64,000 bases of DNA, taken from contig JAUNHC010000006.1 of the NCBI GenBank assembly GCA_030524175.1, positions 1 to 64,000 of the forward strand. Reading direction: 5' to 3'. A model generated the notes under the pieces. It made no database searches, had not been told where the DNA came from, and saw only the letters and a program-made list of their open reading frames with translations. Position numbers and translations under genes: made by a program. Source of the stretch: Eubacteriales bacterium. Lineage in GTDB: Bacteria; Bacillota; Clostridia; Lachnospirales; Lachnospiraceae. Positions within the stretch are counted from its first letter, which is position 1. Each line of letters opens with the position of its first letter. Below are positions 13,993 to 22,103 of the stretch, one piece after another.

Positions 13993-14853
13993 TTATGGCA
14001 TTATTGACAGTATCTGCTGCACCGTCTCTTCAGGTATATCGAGACAACGGGCTATTGCTTCCGGTGTTTCTCCTTTGGCCGTGAGCTCTAAAACTGCTTT
14101 TGTAAGTTGAATCCCTTCTTGCCTCCCTTTTCTTATCCCATCCTCCACAAGCATCTGTCCTAATATCGTCATTGCAATCGCCTCCTTGATCTCTGCCAGC
14201 TCTGTGCTCTTCAGTACCTTAACTGCAAGAGCATATAAAACCGCCTGCATTTTACTCAAATCTCCTCTGTTCACTTCCGGATATTCCTGGTTGAGCCAGA
14301 AGAACCCTTGCCGGATCCTCTCCTTCTGTGGTATTTCTCCGCTCATCAATGGTGTCAGGAGCAGCGGCACAAGATCCTCTTTTTTTATGCCGCTCATTTC
14401 CATTTCCGACAGTTTCTTCAGAATGATACCTGCGTCCATGTCCTTCAGGCGTACCACCTTCACCTTATAAACATTCAATCCCTCTGTCATCTCACACATC
14501 AGTTCCTTTACCGTGGAGGAACACACTACAATAGTGGTCACCTCAACTCCATATGTACGGCTTGTGACAGCCTCATACTCACGGAACCGCCGGAGGTCCT
14601 CACGGGTAATGCTGTCGCTTTCAAATTCAATGTGGAGCCAGCGGTCATCCTTCATCAGGAAGTTAAAATCTTCATACATCTTCTTGATCTCCAGATGGAC
14701 CATCTCTGTAGGTGCAATCCCTATGGGTTTTTCCTCAATCCCCAGATAAGAAAAAAGCTCCTCCCCGAAAAACTGAGCTGCTGCCTTTAAGGCTGCGTCT
14801 TCTGCCTGACAATAGGCCTGCTCCCTGACAGCAATGTCTTTAGTTTCCTGCAT
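13993..14853 (-). CDS. Rpn-like PD-(D/E)XK nuclease family protein
   Basis: A 286-residue protein resembling the Rpn/PDDEXK_2 family (recombination-promoting nucleases, often annotated as putative transposases). The core shows KDDRWLHIEFES (around residue 68), in which the acidic D and E of the PD-(D/E)XK-like fold can be seen, and the C terminus has the family-typical tail GETPEAIARCLDIPEETV. Such genes are multi-copy in Lachnospiraceae. A truncated duplicate of its last ~35 codons lies at 17422-17558. A good sigma-A promoter is found at 14892-14920. Biological role in this locus is unknown. Confidence 0.8.
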   Translation of the reverse strand: MQETKDIAVREQAYCQAEDAALKAAAQFFGEELFSYLGIEEKPIGIAPTEMVHLEIKKMYEDFNFLMKDDRWLHIEFESDSITREDLRRFREYEAVTSRTYGVEVTTIVVCSSTVKELMCEMTEGLNVYKVKVVRLKDMDAGIILKKLSEMEMSGIKKEDLVPLLLTPLMSGEIPQKERIRQGFFWLNQEYPEVNRGDLSKMQAVLYALAVKVLKSTELAEIKEAIAMTILGQMLVEDGIRKGRQEGIQLTKAVLELTAKGETPEAIARCLDIPEETVQQILSIMP

Positions 14854-15167
14854 AATACCTCCTTTTTAAGGCCATGCAGTTCTATATCTCTATTATAGTA
14901 TGCCACAAAAATACATACAACGGTTTTCTTTATTTTATACACATAGTTTCGGAAGTTTTGTCCGATACGGACATGAAATTCACTTTAAGAATTGTCATAT
15001 AAGACATATAAATATGAAAAACAAACTACAACAGAGATATCCTGCAGGACCACCGTTGTCTGCTTCAATTACTATAACATTTCTCAGATGTTATGTAAAG
15101 TATACCAGAGATAAGAATGCTCACTTTTTCAGACTATATTCCTGCAGGCGCCTCTGACTGCTGTGGA
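14854..15167. other. Intergenic region, mostly featureless
   Basis: 314 bases between the Rpn-like gene and the 55-residue membrane peptide gene. Apart from the promoter at 14892-14920 it is AT-rich with no convincing ORF, terminator or repeat; GTCCGATACGGACAT near 14960 is a short imperfect palindrome. Confidence 0.6.
14892..14920 (-). promoter_or_regulatory. Promoter of the Rpn-like gene
   Basis: On the minus strand TTGTAT (14915-14920), 17-base spacer, TATAAT (14892-14897), about 40 bases before the ATG at 14853. Confidence 0.65.
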
Positions 15168-15335
15168 TTACATTATCGGTTTACTTTTTATCCGGCGCAG
15201 TTTTTCCTGACAAAAAAGCTCCTGCTCCTCATCCTCCACGGTTCGATTTACGGAACTTATTTTTGCTAATCCCCACATAATAATCACTAACAGTAATAAT
15301 AGAAGCCCGGCAAAAACTGTGCATACAAATAACAT
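15168..15335 (-). CDS. Small single-span membrane protein
   Basis: A 55-residue peptide: a hydrophobic helix at residues 1-22 (VFAGLLLLLLVIIMWGLA) followed by a charged cytoplasmic-type tail rich in E, K and R (VEDEEQELFCQEKLRR). The ATG at 15335 is preferred over the upstream in-frame ATG at 15374 because AAGGAGAGG lies directly before it. It follows the guide-RNA-like region downstream of the TnpB-like gene. No family recognised; it may simply be an unrelated small membrane protein. Confidence 0.5.
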   Translation of the reverse strand: MLFVCTVFAGLLLLLLVIIMWGLAKISSVNRTVEDEEQELFCQEKLRRIKSKPIM

Positions 15336-15420
15336 GTGATAACCTCTCCTTACCTTTTCACTTTGAGGATACAAAATATCCCCTCTGCAAAACAGAACAA
15401 ATACATTACATTTTATAACT

Positions 15421-15550
15421 TTGAATATATACGCAACTGCGGCTTTACCGACTCCTTGAACGGGCCGGAAGGCGATATTCTACCAAAAGCCGGCAGCCTT
15501 TAGCCACAGGCCTTTTGCTGGTTTCCCAGCATTTATATAAGAGTGATTTC
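15421..15550 (-). ncRNA. Candidate guide (omega) RNA scaffold downstream of TnpB-like gene
   Basis: Minus-strand sequence immediately after the TnpB-like stop codon. It can form GCTGG-GAAA-CCAGC (a GNRA-capped hairpin, near 15517-15530), an AAAAGGC...GCCGGCTTTT stem (near 15485-15517), a GCC-TTCC-GGC hairpin (near 15464-15473) and then CCGTTCAAGG. TnpB omega RNAs are encoded at and beyond the 3' end of tnpB in this orientation and consist of such compact hairpins ending in a guide. The scaffold end, and therefore the guide, cannot be fixed from a single copy. RNA identity is inference. Confidence 0.5.
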
Positions 15551-16774
15551 TCACTGCTTACATCGAAAATCATCAATACATTTCTGACCGAGATTTCTGG
15601 CACTGTTCAAAAACCGATTGCCTCTGTGATCATTACAGCAGAAATATGTATCACGCTTTTTCTTTATATCACTTCCACAGTAAAAACAATGATCGCTGGT
15701 ATTCTGCGCTCCCACTTCTAAGATAAGAATCCCCTGCACCCATGCTTTGTATTTCAGATAACGCCTTATCCTTGCCGACAAATATATAGGTGAATACATT
15801 CCGCACCGGTACTGTACCAGAGATGAAAATTCTTCTTCATATTCCGGAAGTATGATGAGCTTTACTTTATTATTGCAGCAAAAATCTATCACTTCCCGGC
15901 TTACTTTATGGGCATAATATTCGGATAAATTCCGGAGATGAACGTAGTGCTTTTTATTGCTTTGTGTTTCCTTATCATTTTTGGTAAATTTTTCTGAACA
16001 TTGTATTTTCTTTAAAATATTATTGCATTGGTATCTGTACATGTCACCACCGCGGCAAAAATGAACTGCTTGCTGTTTGCCTGCATTGTCCATTACACAG
16101 CAGACAGTAAAAACATCTGTGTTTGTAAACTGCAGGCTGCAGATTTTATCCCCTTTCAGCATTCGTGATTTAGCATTTCGTATATCATCCACCGGAAGCT
16201 TTACCGGAACGTGCAGCATATAAAAATGCTTATATTTCACTAAATTAGGTGACATCGAAATACCATCGGAAGGAAGCTTTCTGCCTTTTAACGGATATTT
16301 TTTCCATACCCAGTTTTCTCCGTCCCAAAGCTTTAAGGTGACCTTTTTATCCGTCAAATCCTTGTACATTCCCTTGTAAAAAGTAACTGTTGCATCAACC
16401 TTTTGAGGAAACACTTTCTGTAAGTCCAATTTACCTGCATTGGCTTTGTCCTCCTCCATATACGATGCCAAGCATGTTTTCGCCGCGGTTGCTGCCTTAT
16501 CAATAGCTGCTCTGCGGAAATACACCGGTACATTATGATATGGGAGCTCTACTTCCGGAACTCTTCCATCTCTTCCTGCCACAGTAAGTATCTCCAAGCC
16601 TCTCTGGATTTGAAACATATTTAAATTCCAAAGTTCCTCTCTTCGTGACAGTAAATCAAAATAAAAACCTACTATATCTCTGAAATAATCCTCTGTTTTA
16701 TAAAAAAATTCATTTTCTGAACTAAGAAGTGTATATTTCCATGTTCTGATACTATATCCTTTTTTCTTTTCCAT
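15551..16774 (-). CDS. Nuclease-dead TnpB-like (Cas12-related) protein
   Basis: A 407-residue TnpB-like protein of the IS605 OrfB type. Its C-terminal half aligns with TnpB RuvC and zinc-ribbon motifs: RuvC-I is ICSLQFTN, with Gln215 where the catalytic Asp is expected; RuvC-II is IILPEYEEEF, with Glu311 kept; RuvC-III is RGNRFLNSARN, with Phe388 in place of the catalytic Asp. Zinc ligands C363, C366, C379/C380 and H383 remain. Two of three catalytic acids are therefore missing while length, fold motifs and reading frame are intact. No tnpA is nearby. This pattern matches domesticated, nuclease-dead TnpB proteins (TldR-like RNA-guided regulators), but a decaying transposon gene is the alternative. 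The ribosome site before the ATG is weak. Confidence 0.8.
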   Translation of the reverse strand: MEKKKGYSIRTWKYTLLSSENEFFYKTEDYFRDIVGFYFDLLSRREELWNLNMFQIQRGLEILTVAGRDGRVPEVELPYHNVPVYFRRAAIDKAATAAKTCLASYMEEDKANAGKLDLQKVFPQKVDATVTFYKGMYKDLTDKKVTLKLWDGENWVWKKYPLKGRKLPSDGISMSPNLVKYKHFYMLHVPVKLPVDDIRNAKSRMLKGDKICSLQFTNTDVFTVCCVMDNAGKQQAVHFCRGGDMYRYQCNNILKKIQCSEKFTKNDKETQSNKKHYVHLRNLSEYYAHKVSREVIDFCCNNKVKLIILPEYEEEFSSLVQYRCGMYSPIYLSARIRRYLKYKAWVQGILILEVGAQNTSDHCFYCGSDIKKKRDTYFCCNDHRGNRFLNSARNLGQKCIDDFRCKQ

Positions 16775-17421
16775 AACTTACCACTGTCGCAATACTGTTA
16801 TAAAATGACAAGGACCAATATATTCATATTTTTAGACATTTAAAACACTATTGACCATTTTATGACTGCGCAAAATAATCATGGAGTTTTCCATAAGTTT
16901 ACAAAGAACTGCTTTGTGACTGCATAACCCATATGAAATGACCATATTTCTCAAGGGAATCTTAAAATATACAAACATGTTAAATATAATTTTTATATAC
17001 CACTATGTGACTGCTTAAAGGAAAATATATTGAATTTTTAATGAATTTAGATATAAAATAGATTCGAAAAAAGTTAATTACGCTTTATCAGATGTACATT
17101 TTTATAGTTAAAATCGACATTATTACATATTGACTGTTCTAATTTTTAAGGTTATACTAAAAAAGTGGAAAAAAAATAGAAAATATTTAAGAAAAGACCA
17201 GCAGAAACTTGTCATATTATAACAGTAATATGATATTTTTTTGTCCAAAATTGCAAGTATGGTGTCAATCAAATATATCAGAAAGGGACTATTCTAAGAA
17301 ATCATTTAGAACAATCCCTTTCGATTCCCTTCCAACCTGCTGACTTCAAACCATGGACACACATAGCAAAGCTCAATATATTCACAATTTTGCAAATATC
17401 GGCACATTTAAATCTGCCCTA
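16775..17421. other. AT-rich intergenic region upstream of TnpB-like gene
   Basis: About 650 bases of very AT-rich DNA without a credible ORF, unlike the surrounding genes. It contains three copies of TGACTGC in similar contexts (near 16863, 16918 and 17007), a possible minus-strand TATAAC -10 element at 16798-16803, and a hairpin at 17281-17322. It separates the TnpB-like gene from the second kinase gene and may hold the left end of a former insertion. Confidence 0.6.
17281..17322 (-). terminator. Hairpin, possible terminator
   Basis: Arms GAAAGGGA / TCCCTTTC closing an inner TTCTAA / TTAGAA stem. On the minus strand no clear T run follows, so termination of the kinase transcript is only likely, not certain. 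Confidence 0.45.
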
Positions 17422-17558
17422 TCTAAATGTGTACTCACTGTCTTTCTCATTTATTGCATTATTGACAGTATCTGCTGTACCGTCTCTTCAGGTATATCGA
17501 GACAATGGGCTATTGCTTCCGGTGTTTCTCCTTTGGCCGTGAGCTGTAAAACTACATT
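17422..17558 (-). pseudogene. Truncated duplicate of the Rpn-gene 3' end and AraC start
   Basis: These 137 bases closely match 13965-14102, covering the AraC translation-start region, the intergenic gap and about the last 35 codons of the Rpn-like gene, and stop four bases before the kinase stop codon at 17562. The shared stretch includes GACAGTATCTGCTG and GGTGTTTCTCCTTTGGCC. The rest of the gene is absent, so this is a relic left by duplication or by insertion/rearrangement around the TnpB-like gene. Confidence 0.85.
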
Positions 17559-17561
17559 TGC

Positions 17562-19313
17562 TTACCGTGCCTCACAGATAGCCGGAAGGATAATCTCAGC
17601 AATAGTAGCCACATTAGGTTCACTGTCAAATATCAATGATGCCTCATCGCCGAAATACAGTTTGAGACGTTCCCTGACATTGTTTACTCCTATTTTGCTG
17701 AACCGGGTTCCTTGTTTTTGACTGCAGTTCAATTTCACTGTACTTTCCTGATCCATGCCGGTACCGTTGTCAATCACTTTGATATGCAGTTTATTATCAT
17801 AAATTTTTGCAGTAATATGGATACGGTAATTTTCCCGACCTTCGCTGAAGCCGTGGATGATAGAATTTTCTACTAAAGGCTGAAGTATAAAACGCAGAAC
17901 ACGATATTGCGCTGCCCGTTCATCTATATCTGTTGTAAATTCGAAAATATCACTGTAACGGTATTTCTGGATAATTATATAGTTCCGCACACTTTCCAGC
18001 TCGTCCCGCAATATGGTCTCACCCTCTGCCTTTCCCAGATTATACTGAAGCAGATTGATAAGTGCTGTACTCATCTCTCCAATATTATCCACCCCCTGCA
18101 TTACAGCCAGCCACTTGATAGAATCCAGTGTATTATAGAGAAAATGGGGGTTGATCTGGGCCTGAAGAATCTGGTATTCCATCTCTGCTTTCCGCTTCTG
18201 GTCAGCCCTCTCCTTGGCAAATGAGTGATTGATCTGCATGAGCATACAATTAAATGTTTGCCCCAGCTGTCCGAATTCATCTCGTCTGGTCACATTCACA
18301 TGGGCATCAAAATTCCCCTTTGCCACTTCTGTACAGATATTCATCAGTTCTTTTACAGGTCTGTTGATAAGCCTGGTCATCCAGGCAGCATACCCTAATG
18401 AGATAAGTGCCACTACAAACAAAGTGATCTTCAGCACCTCCAGCATGTCACGGAACATCTGTGTTGCTGTATCTTTCCGGACAAAACGTACAATACTCCA
18501 GTCAGCAACAGGGATTTTCTCGGAGACTATCACTACATCTTTGTTATATAGCTGGCCTTCTATCTGCACACTTCCCTGCAGAACCTGCGGATATCTTTCA
18601 AGGACATCATCATATCCTGCCTGAAGAGGATATTGAAAAAGAATATTTCCGTTACTGTTTACAATTACAGCTTTATCCTTTAGCCTGATAGACGAGGATG
18701 TAAAAAGTTTATGTAGGCTTTCATAGGATATATCCAAAACGGCAATTCCATAAACTTCCTTCGTCTCACTGTCAAACAGGGGACGGATATAGGAGGTGCT
18801 GCTTAAATAATTGTCATCCTCTGTGGTATGGAAATCTGTCCAGACGCCTTTTCTCCCGCTTTCGTATTTATATCTGTCCAAATATTCTTTATAGTAGGTA
18901 TATCCTCCAGGCCCGGAAAAGCCGGCACTGGTTGAACACCGGAAGCCATTAGTCCCTAGAATATGTACATTGTTGATACTGTAATTGATGGAACTCATAG
19001 CATTAATGTATGTCTGGATTTCTTCTTTATCTTCCTGAGATACCTCTGCAGCTTTATGGGCAAAAACCGCCTCTTTTACTGTGGGATGAGTAAGCAGCGA
19101 ATAGATGCTCTCATCAATCATATTGATCAATACATTAAATTGTTCTTTTGTATTGTTGGTAATTTCCAGGTGATATTCGATTTCTTTATTTTCCAATATG
19201 TTCCTGTAAAAACTCATGATACTGGCAGACATGATCAGTAAAATAAGCAGGAACAGAAAGAATATCCCGAAAAATATCTCAATGGAAATGGAATGGGTCC
19301 TCTTAAACTTCAT
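17562..19313 (-). CDS. Sensor histidine kinase, YesM type (second)
   Basis: A 583-residue membrane kinase. Transmembrane helices at about residues 12-33 and 293-313 flank an extracellular sensor region (Cache-like, with GYTYYKEYLDRY near residue 140). A HAMP domain (RLINRPVKELMNICTEVAKG) follows, then the phospho-acceptor motif QAQINPHFLYNTLDSIKW and ATP-binding motif VIDNGTGMD. It is 18 bases downstream of the AraC-type regulator gene, with ribosome site GGAGGA. Presumably senses the ligand of the 21-28 kb importer. Confidence 0.93.
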   Translation of the reverse strand: MKFKRTHSISIEIFFGIFFLFLLILLIMSASIMSFYRNILENKEIEYHLEITNNTKEQFNVLINMIDESIYSLLTHPTVKEAVFAHKAAEVSQEDKEEIQTYINAMSSINYSINNVHILGTNGFRCSTSAGFSGPGGYTYYKEYLDRYKYESGRKGVWTDFHTTEDDNYLSSTSYIRPLFDSETKEVYGIAVLDISYESLHKLFTSSSIRLKDKAVIVNSNGNILFQYPLQAGYDDVLERYPQVLQGSVQIEGQLYNKDVVIVSEKIPVADWSIVRFVRKDTATQMFRDMLEVLKITLFVVALISLGYAAWMTRLINRPVKELMNICTEVAKGNFDAHVNVTRRDEFGQLGQTFNCMLMQINHSFAKERADQKRKAEMEYQILQAQINPHFLYNTLDSIKWLAVMQGVDNIGEMSTALINLLQYNLGKAEGETILRDELESVRNYIIIQKYRYSDIFEFTTDIDERAAQYRVLRFILQPLVENSIIHGFSEGRENYRIHITAKIYDNKLHIKVIDNGTGMDQESTVKLNCSQKQGTRFSKIGVNNVRERLKLYFGDEASLIFDSEPNVATIAEIILPAICEAR

Positions 19314-21014: not shown

Positions 21015-22103
21015 TTATTCAAATGTTAAGGCCACCTTGAAATCTCCATATTTCCCCGTGGCATACTCAAAGCCTTTCTCCCACTCTTCAATGGGGAAGC
21101 TGCTGGAAACCACCCCGTCTGTTTTCAGCTTGCCGCTGCTGATGTTCTCAATAACAAAGGGATAAGCATAAGGACTCAGATGTGCCCCCAGAATATCCAG
21201 TTCTTTGCGGTCGCCGATAATGGACCAGTCTACTGTGGTGGGAGCTCCGAAAACACTGAACTCCACCATGCGGCCCAGTTTTCGTACCATACTCAGGCCC
21301 TGGATCACACTGGATGGATGACCGGTTGCCTCAATGTATACGTCACATCCGTAACCGTCCGTAATCTCTTCTATGGCCTTTATCACATCCGTCTTTCCCG
21401 GATTCCACACCAGGTCAGCGCCGAACTCTTTTGCTTTTTCCAGACGTCCGTCTACCATATCCAGTACAATGAGCTTCCTGGGATTCTTCATTCTTGCATA
21501 GGTCGCCATTCCAAGACCCAGTGTACCTGCTCCGGAAATCACCACAACGTCCTCATTTGTGATATTCCCTCTGTCCACTGCATGCTTGGAGCACCCGTAT
21601 GGTTCAATGAGCAGTGCCTGATCCAAGGGCATGGATTCAGGGACCTTGCTTATGACACAGGTCTTTGGAAATCGTACATATTCTGCCATACCGCCGTTGT
21701 TGGTATGCTGAAATCCAAAAATATTGTGAGGCTGGCACATCCAGTAATGGCCGTCTTTACAGAACCGGCATTCACCGCAGGGAACAATCTGATCTGCAAT
21801 GATACGGTCACCCAGCTCATATCCCTTTACGTTCTCACCCATTTCCACAATGTGGCCAAAAAACTCATGCCCGGGAATAAATGGAGGTTTTACCCATGCA
21901 GGCTGTGTTTCATCTCCCCAGAACATAGCAGCTCCATGATTACATTTCAAATCCCCTGCACAGATGCCGCAGGCCTCTGTTTTGATAATAATGTCATCCG
22001 GACCGCACACCGGTGTAGGATAAGCAGTTTCAAATACATAGTTGTCTTTTCCATAAGCAACCAATGCTTTCATCGTTTTGGGAGTAGTACCAATATTAGC
22101 CAT
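21015..22103 (-). CDS. Zinc-dependent polyol/alcohol dehydrogenase
   Basis: A 362-residue medium-chain dehydrogenase (MDR family). Catalytic-zinc motifs EACGICAGDLK and GHEFFG, four structural-zinc cysteines in CGECRFCKDGHYWMC, and the Rossmann signature GAGTLGLG (about residue 190) are visible. The sequence resembles erythritol/L-threitol and related polyol dehydrogenases, which oxidise a sugar alcohol to a ketose with NAD. It lies at the end of the importer gene set (about 35 bases after the ATPase stop), suggesting the imported compound is a polyol. Substrate is inference. Confidence 0.85.
   Translation of the reverse strand: MANIGTTPKTMKALVAYGKDNYVFETAYPTPVCGPDDIIIKTEACGICAGDLKCNHGAAMFWGDETQPAWVKPPFIPGHEFFGHIVEMGENVKGYELGDRIIADQIVPCGECRFCKDGHYWMCQPHNIFGFQHTNNGGMAEYVRFPKTCVISKVPESMPLDQALLIEPYGCSKHAVDRGNITNEDVVVISGAGTLGLGMATYARMKNPRKLIVLDMVDGRLEKAKEFGADLVWNPGKTDVIKAIEEITDGYGCDVYIEATGHPSSVIQGLSMVRKLGRMVEFSVFGAPTTVDWSIIGDRKELDILGAHLSPYAYPFVIENISSGKLKTDGVVSSSFPIEEWEKGFEYATGKYGDFKVALTFE

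Follow-up and report, generated by a model that had tools for sequence, protein, structure and literature searches.

Nuclease-dead TnpB-like proteins of gut Clostridia as probable RNA-using regulators at the head of often switchable surface-polysaccharide operons

A TnpB-like protein with a dead RuvC site

The window, a 64,000-nucleotide stretch of contig JAUNHC010000006.1 from a Lachnospiraceae genome, carries on its minus strand an uninterrupted frame of 407 amino acids (15551..16774) that encodes a nuclease-dead TnpB-like protein, here called dTnpB. A structured RNA and a short open reading frame lie behind the gene, and an inverted repeat lies in front of it. A first, sequence-only reading of this DNA had described the frame as intact and the zinc ribbon as kept, and both descriptions hold: the protein scores 37.6 bits against Pfam PF07282 (Cas12f1-like TNB zinc-ribbon; cut-off 26.3), and the ribbon stretch (15638..15688, minus strand) contains Cys363, Cys366 and Cys379, which are invariant in the 58 rows of our alignment A5. 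Since L111 and L129, which have no ribbon cysteines, were left out of A5, this invariance applies to those 58 rows only; the alignment covers 57 of 68 loci and also leaves out three relatives with a D-E-D triad (L153, L155 and L156) and the cut, broken or duplicate copies L107, L109, L125, L135, L144 and L147.

The sequence-only reading had also proposed that two of the three RuvC acids are replaced. Both a multiple alignment with D-E-D relatives and a profile-profile alignment (hhalign, probability 99.9) place Gln215 (codon at 16130..16132, minus strand) at the RuvC-I Asp position and Phe388 (15611..15613, minus strand) at the RuvC-III Asp position, as proposed, and the profile alignment gives no aspartates in another register. 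The third assignment needs correction. Glu311, previously taken as the RuvC-II Glu, lies one residue off the catalytic column, in a freely variable position where K, N, E, D, R and further residues occur; in both alignments the catalytic position is that of residue 310 (15845..15847, minus strand), which is proline in 63 of 74 aligned rows including that of the window. Because the RuvC-II column is that of Pro310, all three acids are lost (Q215, P310 and F388).

The predicted structure of the window protein shows a complete TnpB/Cas12f fold (REC-RuvC-zinc), and in structure comparison Cas12f and TnpB matches cover the chain from end to end; no NusG-like chain stands among the 50 matches listed. 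By sequence, solved structures gave four matches with E-values of at least 0.14, two of them Cas12f/Cas12m. The protein falls below the curated cut-off of NCBIfam NF040570 for RNA-guided TnpB (52.6 against 100 bits). It is unlike Cas12f and dCas12f in that it scores 40.1 bits against a Cas12f2 cut-off of 450, and a repeat search of the two flanks examined (14850-15600 and 16700-17700) found no CRISPR-like array. The earlier statement that tnpA is absent agrees with a search of the whole genome for Y1 transposases (PF01797), which was negative in this 90.7% complete genome and positive in 5 of 14 genomes serving as control. Thus neither the D-E-D triad nor the genomic Y1 TnpA of an active IS200/IS605 TnpB was found.

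The source genome holds four dTnpB copies, the other three being 42-52% identical to the window protein, and the family has about 70 detected members across Clostridia. Matches occurred in 17 of 64 Blautia genomes, of which 15 have true members and two (G250 and G261) only distant D-E-D types, and in 8 of 200 genomes sampled at family level, of which 5 have true members by E-value, a division that is our own reading. When named genomes were scanned with a profile as guide, 70 loci came up, including a few D-E-D proteins or fragments; these loci lie in Blautia, Coprococcus comes, Eubacterium callanderi, Anaerotruncus colihominis and uncultured Clostridia. A scan of genome contigs with the single window protein as query found no match, and a scan of viral contigs found one, a D-E-D protein.

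At the three catalytic columns, not one of the 71 family rows of the multiple alignment has an acid (gaps in 0, 1 and 3 rows); the alignment has 74 rows, the other three being L153, L155 and L156, and the 71 include near-duplicate loci (L134/L135 and L071/L111). As judged from these alignments, loss of the triad is old and shared by the family and not recent decay. We therefore consider it highly improbable that dTnpB is a dead IS605 gene on its way to becoming a pseudogene. Such decay would fit the presence of D-E-D relatives in the same genus, the broken copies L079, L076 and L152, and the two sequences without ribbon cysteines (L111, which equals L071, and L129). Yet most members keep the frame, the zinc ribbon and the pairing of the RNA described below while the acids are gone from every row, which favors selection over decay, as the sequence-only reading had supposed. 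The window copy deviates at 7 of 93 highly conserved positions, within the range of 0 to 11 among 27 other rows, three of which exceed it (the broken L107 is left aside). In L111 and L129, loss of the ribbon cysteines may be a further step of loss.

The proteins of a related D-E-D family (L033, L084, L085, L153 and L155), all without zinc-ribbon cysteines, are followed by IS200/IS605-like stretches, and by eye L085 and L033 have a Y1-transposase-like frame upstream. Those at L033 and L084/L085, which we compare as IS200/IS605 TnpB with omegaRNA, are homologous to dTnpB (hhalign probability 99.9) but differ from it in keeping D-E-D while the zinc cysteines are absent. Their downstream stretch is conserved up to an end in GTCATGTGAG and then differs between loci. 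TnpB genes of this class typically have an RNA at their 3′ end.

The RNA partner and its tail

The region behind the window gene (15415-15562, minus strand) folds with z = -4.11, and 1 of 200 shuffles was as good, so the structured region that the sequence-only reading saw there is borne out. Its core (15415..15538, minus strand) matches our model R1 at 91.5 bits and contains a pseudoknot; the tail AAGTTAT (15415..15421, minus strand) comes after the 3′ strand of this pseudoknot. A 5′ hairpin overlapping the stop codon (15536..15562, minus strand) is a probable extension of the RNA outside R1, suggested by the fold. The core measures 124 nt in the window and 111-190 nt among aligned loci. Across 28 homologous loci the region covaries: in five helices, which include the long-range strand pair of the pseudoknot, 92.6% of cells are paired compared with 73.4% in shuffles and at most 45.1% when partners are slid, and double changes occur in 21 of 28 pairs. 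This alignment (A1) comprises 28 of the 30 loci that share the AAGTTAT pattern, the near-duplicates L066 and L067 having been left out.

Gene and RNA travel together. The covariance model finds exactly four RNA copies in the source genome, one per dTnpB, and under strict filters 33 matches in the 64 Blautia genomes, all 33 beside a dTnpB gene (in G262, a gene fragment). Orphan RNA copies, for which we looked with R1 in the source genome and the genus, were not found. A looser descriptor recovers the RNA at 52 of 70 loci, behind dTnpB at 48 and in front of it at 4, and in none of 109 distant windows; the 18 loci with no match to it are mostly distant ones. Rfam has no family reaching its gathering score in seven loci, and in window positions 14800-17600 the best E-value was 0.52. 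At L117 (Anaerotruncus colihominis) and L120, L122 and L128 (strain 1XD42-1), dTnpB is instead preceded by the RNA, whose tail starts 25-35 nt ahead of the start codon and near the ribosome-binding site; this leaves little room for a guide.

In most Blautia loci AAGTTAT directly follows the closing helix, with variants in some loci and in distant clades, although this statement rests on loci found by the AAGTTAT pattern itself (30 of 39 contexts, from which the 27 tails we tabulated are a selection). Among the other nine contexts, the heptamer occurs in another setting at L080 and L079, is replaced by AAGTAAT or AAGTATT at L064, L071 and L060b, and gives way to a different tail (GAGAGGTAT) at L081-L083; at L076 no AAGTTAT tail was seen. 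Past the heptamer the tails are A/T-rich, differ between orthologs and show no further match to targets. The 18-nt tail of the window occurs at 13 places in the genome, including its own, compared with 10 for a reversed control, and thus is not enriched; the E. callanderi variant occurs at 5 places compared with 8 for its control, and by coordinates 4 of the 5 are the RNA genes themselves. An 11-nt match between the window tail and its own upstream repeat was considered as a guide target and rejected: tails match their own upstream regions over a mean of 8.31 nt and those of other loci over 8.28 nt (32 loci), showing no excess, and the core of the repeat varies by locus.

Two uses of such a tail can be envisioned. 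The one we favor, set out below, is that AAGTTAT serves as a short, fixed guide. The main rival, which we think somewhat less probable, is that the heptamer is no guide but an ops-like leader element, and that dTnpB binds its own RNA while the operon is being transcribed. Acting in cis, it might then serve as an antitermination or stability factor specific to its locus, comparable to UpxY in the capsule operons of Bacteroides. In favor of this reading, the RNA stands between dTnpB and the operon at 48 of 70 loci (with four 5′ cases and 18 loci without a descriptor match), and the tails past AAGTTAT look unselected. Moreover, the RuvC site of TnpB trims its RNA, which a dead site could not do. 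The complete REC-RuvC-zinc fold of the model, together with zinc cysteines that just a few members lack, exceeds what RNA binding should need, however, and the tail is followed by no general terminator, a T-run being present in only some loci.

Polysaccharide operons and invertible upstream segments

Pfam assigns the first two genes behind dTnpB at 69 loci (112 proteins) mainly to polysaccharide families: Epimerase 21, Polysacc_synt_2 17, Glycos_transf_2 16, Bac_transf 12, Glycos_transf_1 12, DegT 7, UDP-glucose dehydrogenase 7 and NTP_transferase 6, where several families may overlap on one protein. Among 105 upstream proteins used as control, the commonest families number 3, DegT among them. 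The genes vary in detail yet remain mainly polysaccharide genes across distant genera. The sequence-only reading had noted carbohydrate regulators and importers around the protein, had suggested a regulator of sugar use and had proposed to test whether close homologs share the substitutions and such synteny; loss of the acids is general in the family, and the synteny is mainly with surface-polysaccharide synthesis. We rejected the sugar-use regulator on these paralog neighbors and on the window copy, which has only an apparent, truncated operon remnant. Likewise, "orphan" describes the window copy and not the family, which heads polysaccharide operons.

Behind the window RNA stands only a 55-amino-acid ORF (15168..15335, minus strand), followed by unrelated genes. 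By eye it resembles the N terminus of the CapD-like proteins encoded by the first operon gene at L046 and L186 and is probably a remnant of a polysaccharide operon that appears from the sequence to have been lost. Because of this apparent loss, the sugar importers nearby are probably not partners of dTnpB. Protein, RNA and a somewhat degenerate switch are still encoded by the window copy, but any action of it would have to be in trans, on other loci of the genome.

Other features of the neighborhood deserve mention. An alcohol dehydrogenase gene of the window (21015-22103) has a very similar counterpart upstream of the paralog L047 at 106 kb of the same contig (C51 of the source genome), which suggests a duplicated block, perhaps an old segmental duplication. 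A 286-amino-acid protein at 13993-14853 (minus strand) has weak PD-(D/E)XK and HTH matches below Pfam cut-offs, and we take it to be perhaps an Rpn-like recombination protein.

Upstream of the window gene, two arms (proximal, 16793..16812; distal, 17208..17227) that are 95% complementary flank 395 nt (16813..17207). The repeat scores 17, compared with at most 12 in 10 shuffles. Inverted repeats scoring at least 18, with arms roughly 90-450 bp apart, precede the gene at 37 of 68 loci (three D-E-D relatives are among the misses), but occur in none of 53 distant windows and in no shuffle. Many arms are palindromes in their own right (for example, TGTCGCTTAT-7nt-ATAAGCGACA), and the arms differ between loci. 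Within a single B. schinkii genome, a 371-bp segment shared by L105 and L116 (97% identity) is oriented oppositely at the two loci. We read these segments as switchable promoters heading polysaccharide operons, with inversion visible between the paralogous loci L105 and L116, and regard 16813..17207 as a candidate invertible promoter segment. Its three best promoter-like matches are directed away from the gene, so that the assembly may show the "off" state; this reading is weak because the number of promoter-like sites, 14, is near the shuffled mean of 9.9 (sd 3.3).

The window segment also contains a GTCA-N7-GTCA direct repeat (16852..16866, minus strand), a motif enriched upstream of family genes. 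GTCA-N6..9-GTCA repeats occur upstream of 32 of 69 loci, several having two blocks about 80-90 bp apart. They number 44 in 42.5 kb near the genes (37 on the plus and 7 on the minus strand) compared with 45 in 790 kb far from them, both strands counted. Their strand flips in inverted loci (L105 and L116, L110 and L121). From their resemblance to such sites, we assume that they could bind an OmpR/PhoB-type activator.

Thus, dTnpB is found between an invertible segment and polysaccharide genes. Could the pair control only its own dosage or the inversion switch, with the polysaccharide operons simply carried along? Switch, gene and RNA are tightly coupled physically, and a tyrosine recombinase gene adjoins 9 of 39 contexts, one confirmed as Phage_integrase (a count that uses single linkage and a crude gene caller and includes one contig twice). 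However, the downstream genes, variable as they are in detail, are mainly polysaccharide genes in distant genera, and the switch arms differ by locus while the RNA is conserved. We consider such a purely autoregulatory or structural role quite improbable.

TTRGAT-AAGTTAT sites and a possible mode of action

The pattern TTRGAT-AAGTTAT occurs at 21 places in the 64 Blautia genomes, compared with 5 for the reversed pattern. Nine of the 21 sites lie just before dTnpB genes and nine of the remaining 12 are linked to polysaccharide genes, which for most of these sites is confirmed by Pfam matches of the ORF itself or of a homolog. Seven stand directly before a polysaccharide gene (L177, L181, L183, L184, L186, L187 and L192), L174 lies 0.84 kb before one, and L190 lies directly after one, its own downstream gene being beyond the stretch examined; L175, L178 and L182 have no polysaccharide link. 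Since L181, L186 and L192 are orthologous and L184 and L190 flank one gene, the sites are not all independent. Counting all sites, 8 of 15 dTnpB genomes and 4 of 49 others carry one (p = 0.0004). With sites beside dTnpB genes excluded the counts are 7 of 15 and 4 of 49 (p = 0.002), and with only the polysaccharide-linked ones among these, 6 of 15 and 2 of 49 (p = 0.0014), the two being G212 and G229, in which dTnpB was not detected. A longer form, TTRGATAAGTTATAAA, occurs in one of the 200 family-level genomes, G098, which is one of the 5 dTnpB carriers (p = 0.025, weak alone); of its two places, one is behind the genome's own dTnpB RNA and the other before a CapD-like gene. No TTRGATAAGTTAT site is present at the window locus, and E. 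callanderi has no sites of the TTRGAT-AAGTTAT type.

As a separate observation, a TTAGATAAGTTATAAATATAA-like element lies beside polysaccharide genes at L186, L181, L192, L187, L184, L190, L183, L177, L174 and L200, with no dTnpB in the stretch examined (about 1.5 kb on each side or less). At L186, L181, L192, L187 and L200 it sits between two genes.

At the sites TTRGAT precedes AAGTTAT, where a TAM would stand, while it is absent before the copy in the RNA gene. We consider TldR-like binding of TTRGAT-AAGTTAT sites with a short, fixed guide to be the best explanation, with a probability of about 0.4. It builds on a fold that is intact in the window model, a triad dead throughout the family and an RNA linked one-to-one with the gene in the genus. 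An IS200/IS605-type TnpB would have been domesticated in Clostridia, losing its three RuvC acids while keeping fold and RNA, and would have come to stand first in surface-polysaccharide operons, of which many would be phase-variable. Together, protein and RNA would make up a ribonucleoprotein able to bind DNA but not to cut it, guided by the 3′ tail of the RNA (AAGUUAU, then A/T-rich). TTRGAT would act like a TAM at the sites, which are found in front of dTnpB genes as well as in front of or between polysaccharide operon genes. Occupancy of these sites would reduce transcription, such that an operon switched on by promoter inversion would limit both itself and others. That the family thereby coordinates several phase-variable polysaccharide operons within one cell through shared sites, as a triple-dead TnpB with an evolutionarily fixed guide imposing RNA-guided mutual exclusion, is an attractive but doubtful extension of this idea.

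The sense orientation of the sites, which lie in leaders and between genes, would be explained as well by a leader RNA element, and counts as evidence against the fixed-guide reading; TTRGAT, which the sites have and the RNA genes lack, argues against the leader. UpxY, with which the leader reading invites comparison, is a NusG-like antitermination factor in which we know of no TnpB fold and in these respects is unlike dTnpB. The architectures are nevertheless parallel: UpxY and UpxZ are encoded by the first genes behind the invertible promoter of polysaccharide operons, that is, promoter, upxY and capsule genes in this order, at several loci per genome (PMC12632263).

How does the family compare with known RNA-guided repressors? 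The sequence-only reading had likened the protein to TldR, and the likeness extends to the TnpB fold, the dead triad, an adjacent structured RNA and a stable association with non-transposon genes, the last apparently lost for the window copy itself. For guide and target, the decisive feature, we found only the AAGTTAT heptamer with TTRGAT in front, and no longer match; one published TldR needs a guide of only 6 nt. The dTnpB RNA differs from that of TldR in its usually fixed AAGTTAT and A/T-rich tail and in that it can sit 5′ of the gene. By analogy, the family seems to work most like TldR, from which RNA-dependent DNA binding and repression are predicted. The nearest parallel appears to be the csrA-tldR loci of Oscillibacter and Flavonifractor, which have a dead RuvC site in a TnpB superfamily protein, an adjacent RNA, domestication beside a surface-structure gene, several copies per genome and, in the csrA-linked clade, upstream DNA inversions involving promoters (PMC13418256). 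There, in contrast to the polysaccharide operons beside dTnpB, the targets are flagellin genes reached through differing guides, and the recombinase is Hin instead of the phage-integrase (tyrosine) family member found beside some dTnpB loci (PMC13418256). The words polysaccharide, capsule and Blautia are absent from the text of that report. The founding TldR paper aside, we found no link of TnpB or TldR to polysaccharide loci in the literature, judged by titles and abstract openings, nor did those of papers mentioning both "TnpB" and "capsular polysaccharide" connect the two.

The description that our findings support is of a domesticated, nuclease-dead and RNA-partnered regulator in Clostridia, whose members are probably RNA-using regulators at the head of often switchable surface-polysaccharide operons in gut species. 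The family would be a sizeable and apparently undescribed branch of domesticated TnpB proteins, tied to the surface of common human gut bacteria, and it raises the testable question of how Blautia and its relatives choose which surface polysaccharide to make. As an RNA-protein pair in which the guide function has possibly been fixed or lost, it also bears on how CRISPR-like guides arise and disappear.
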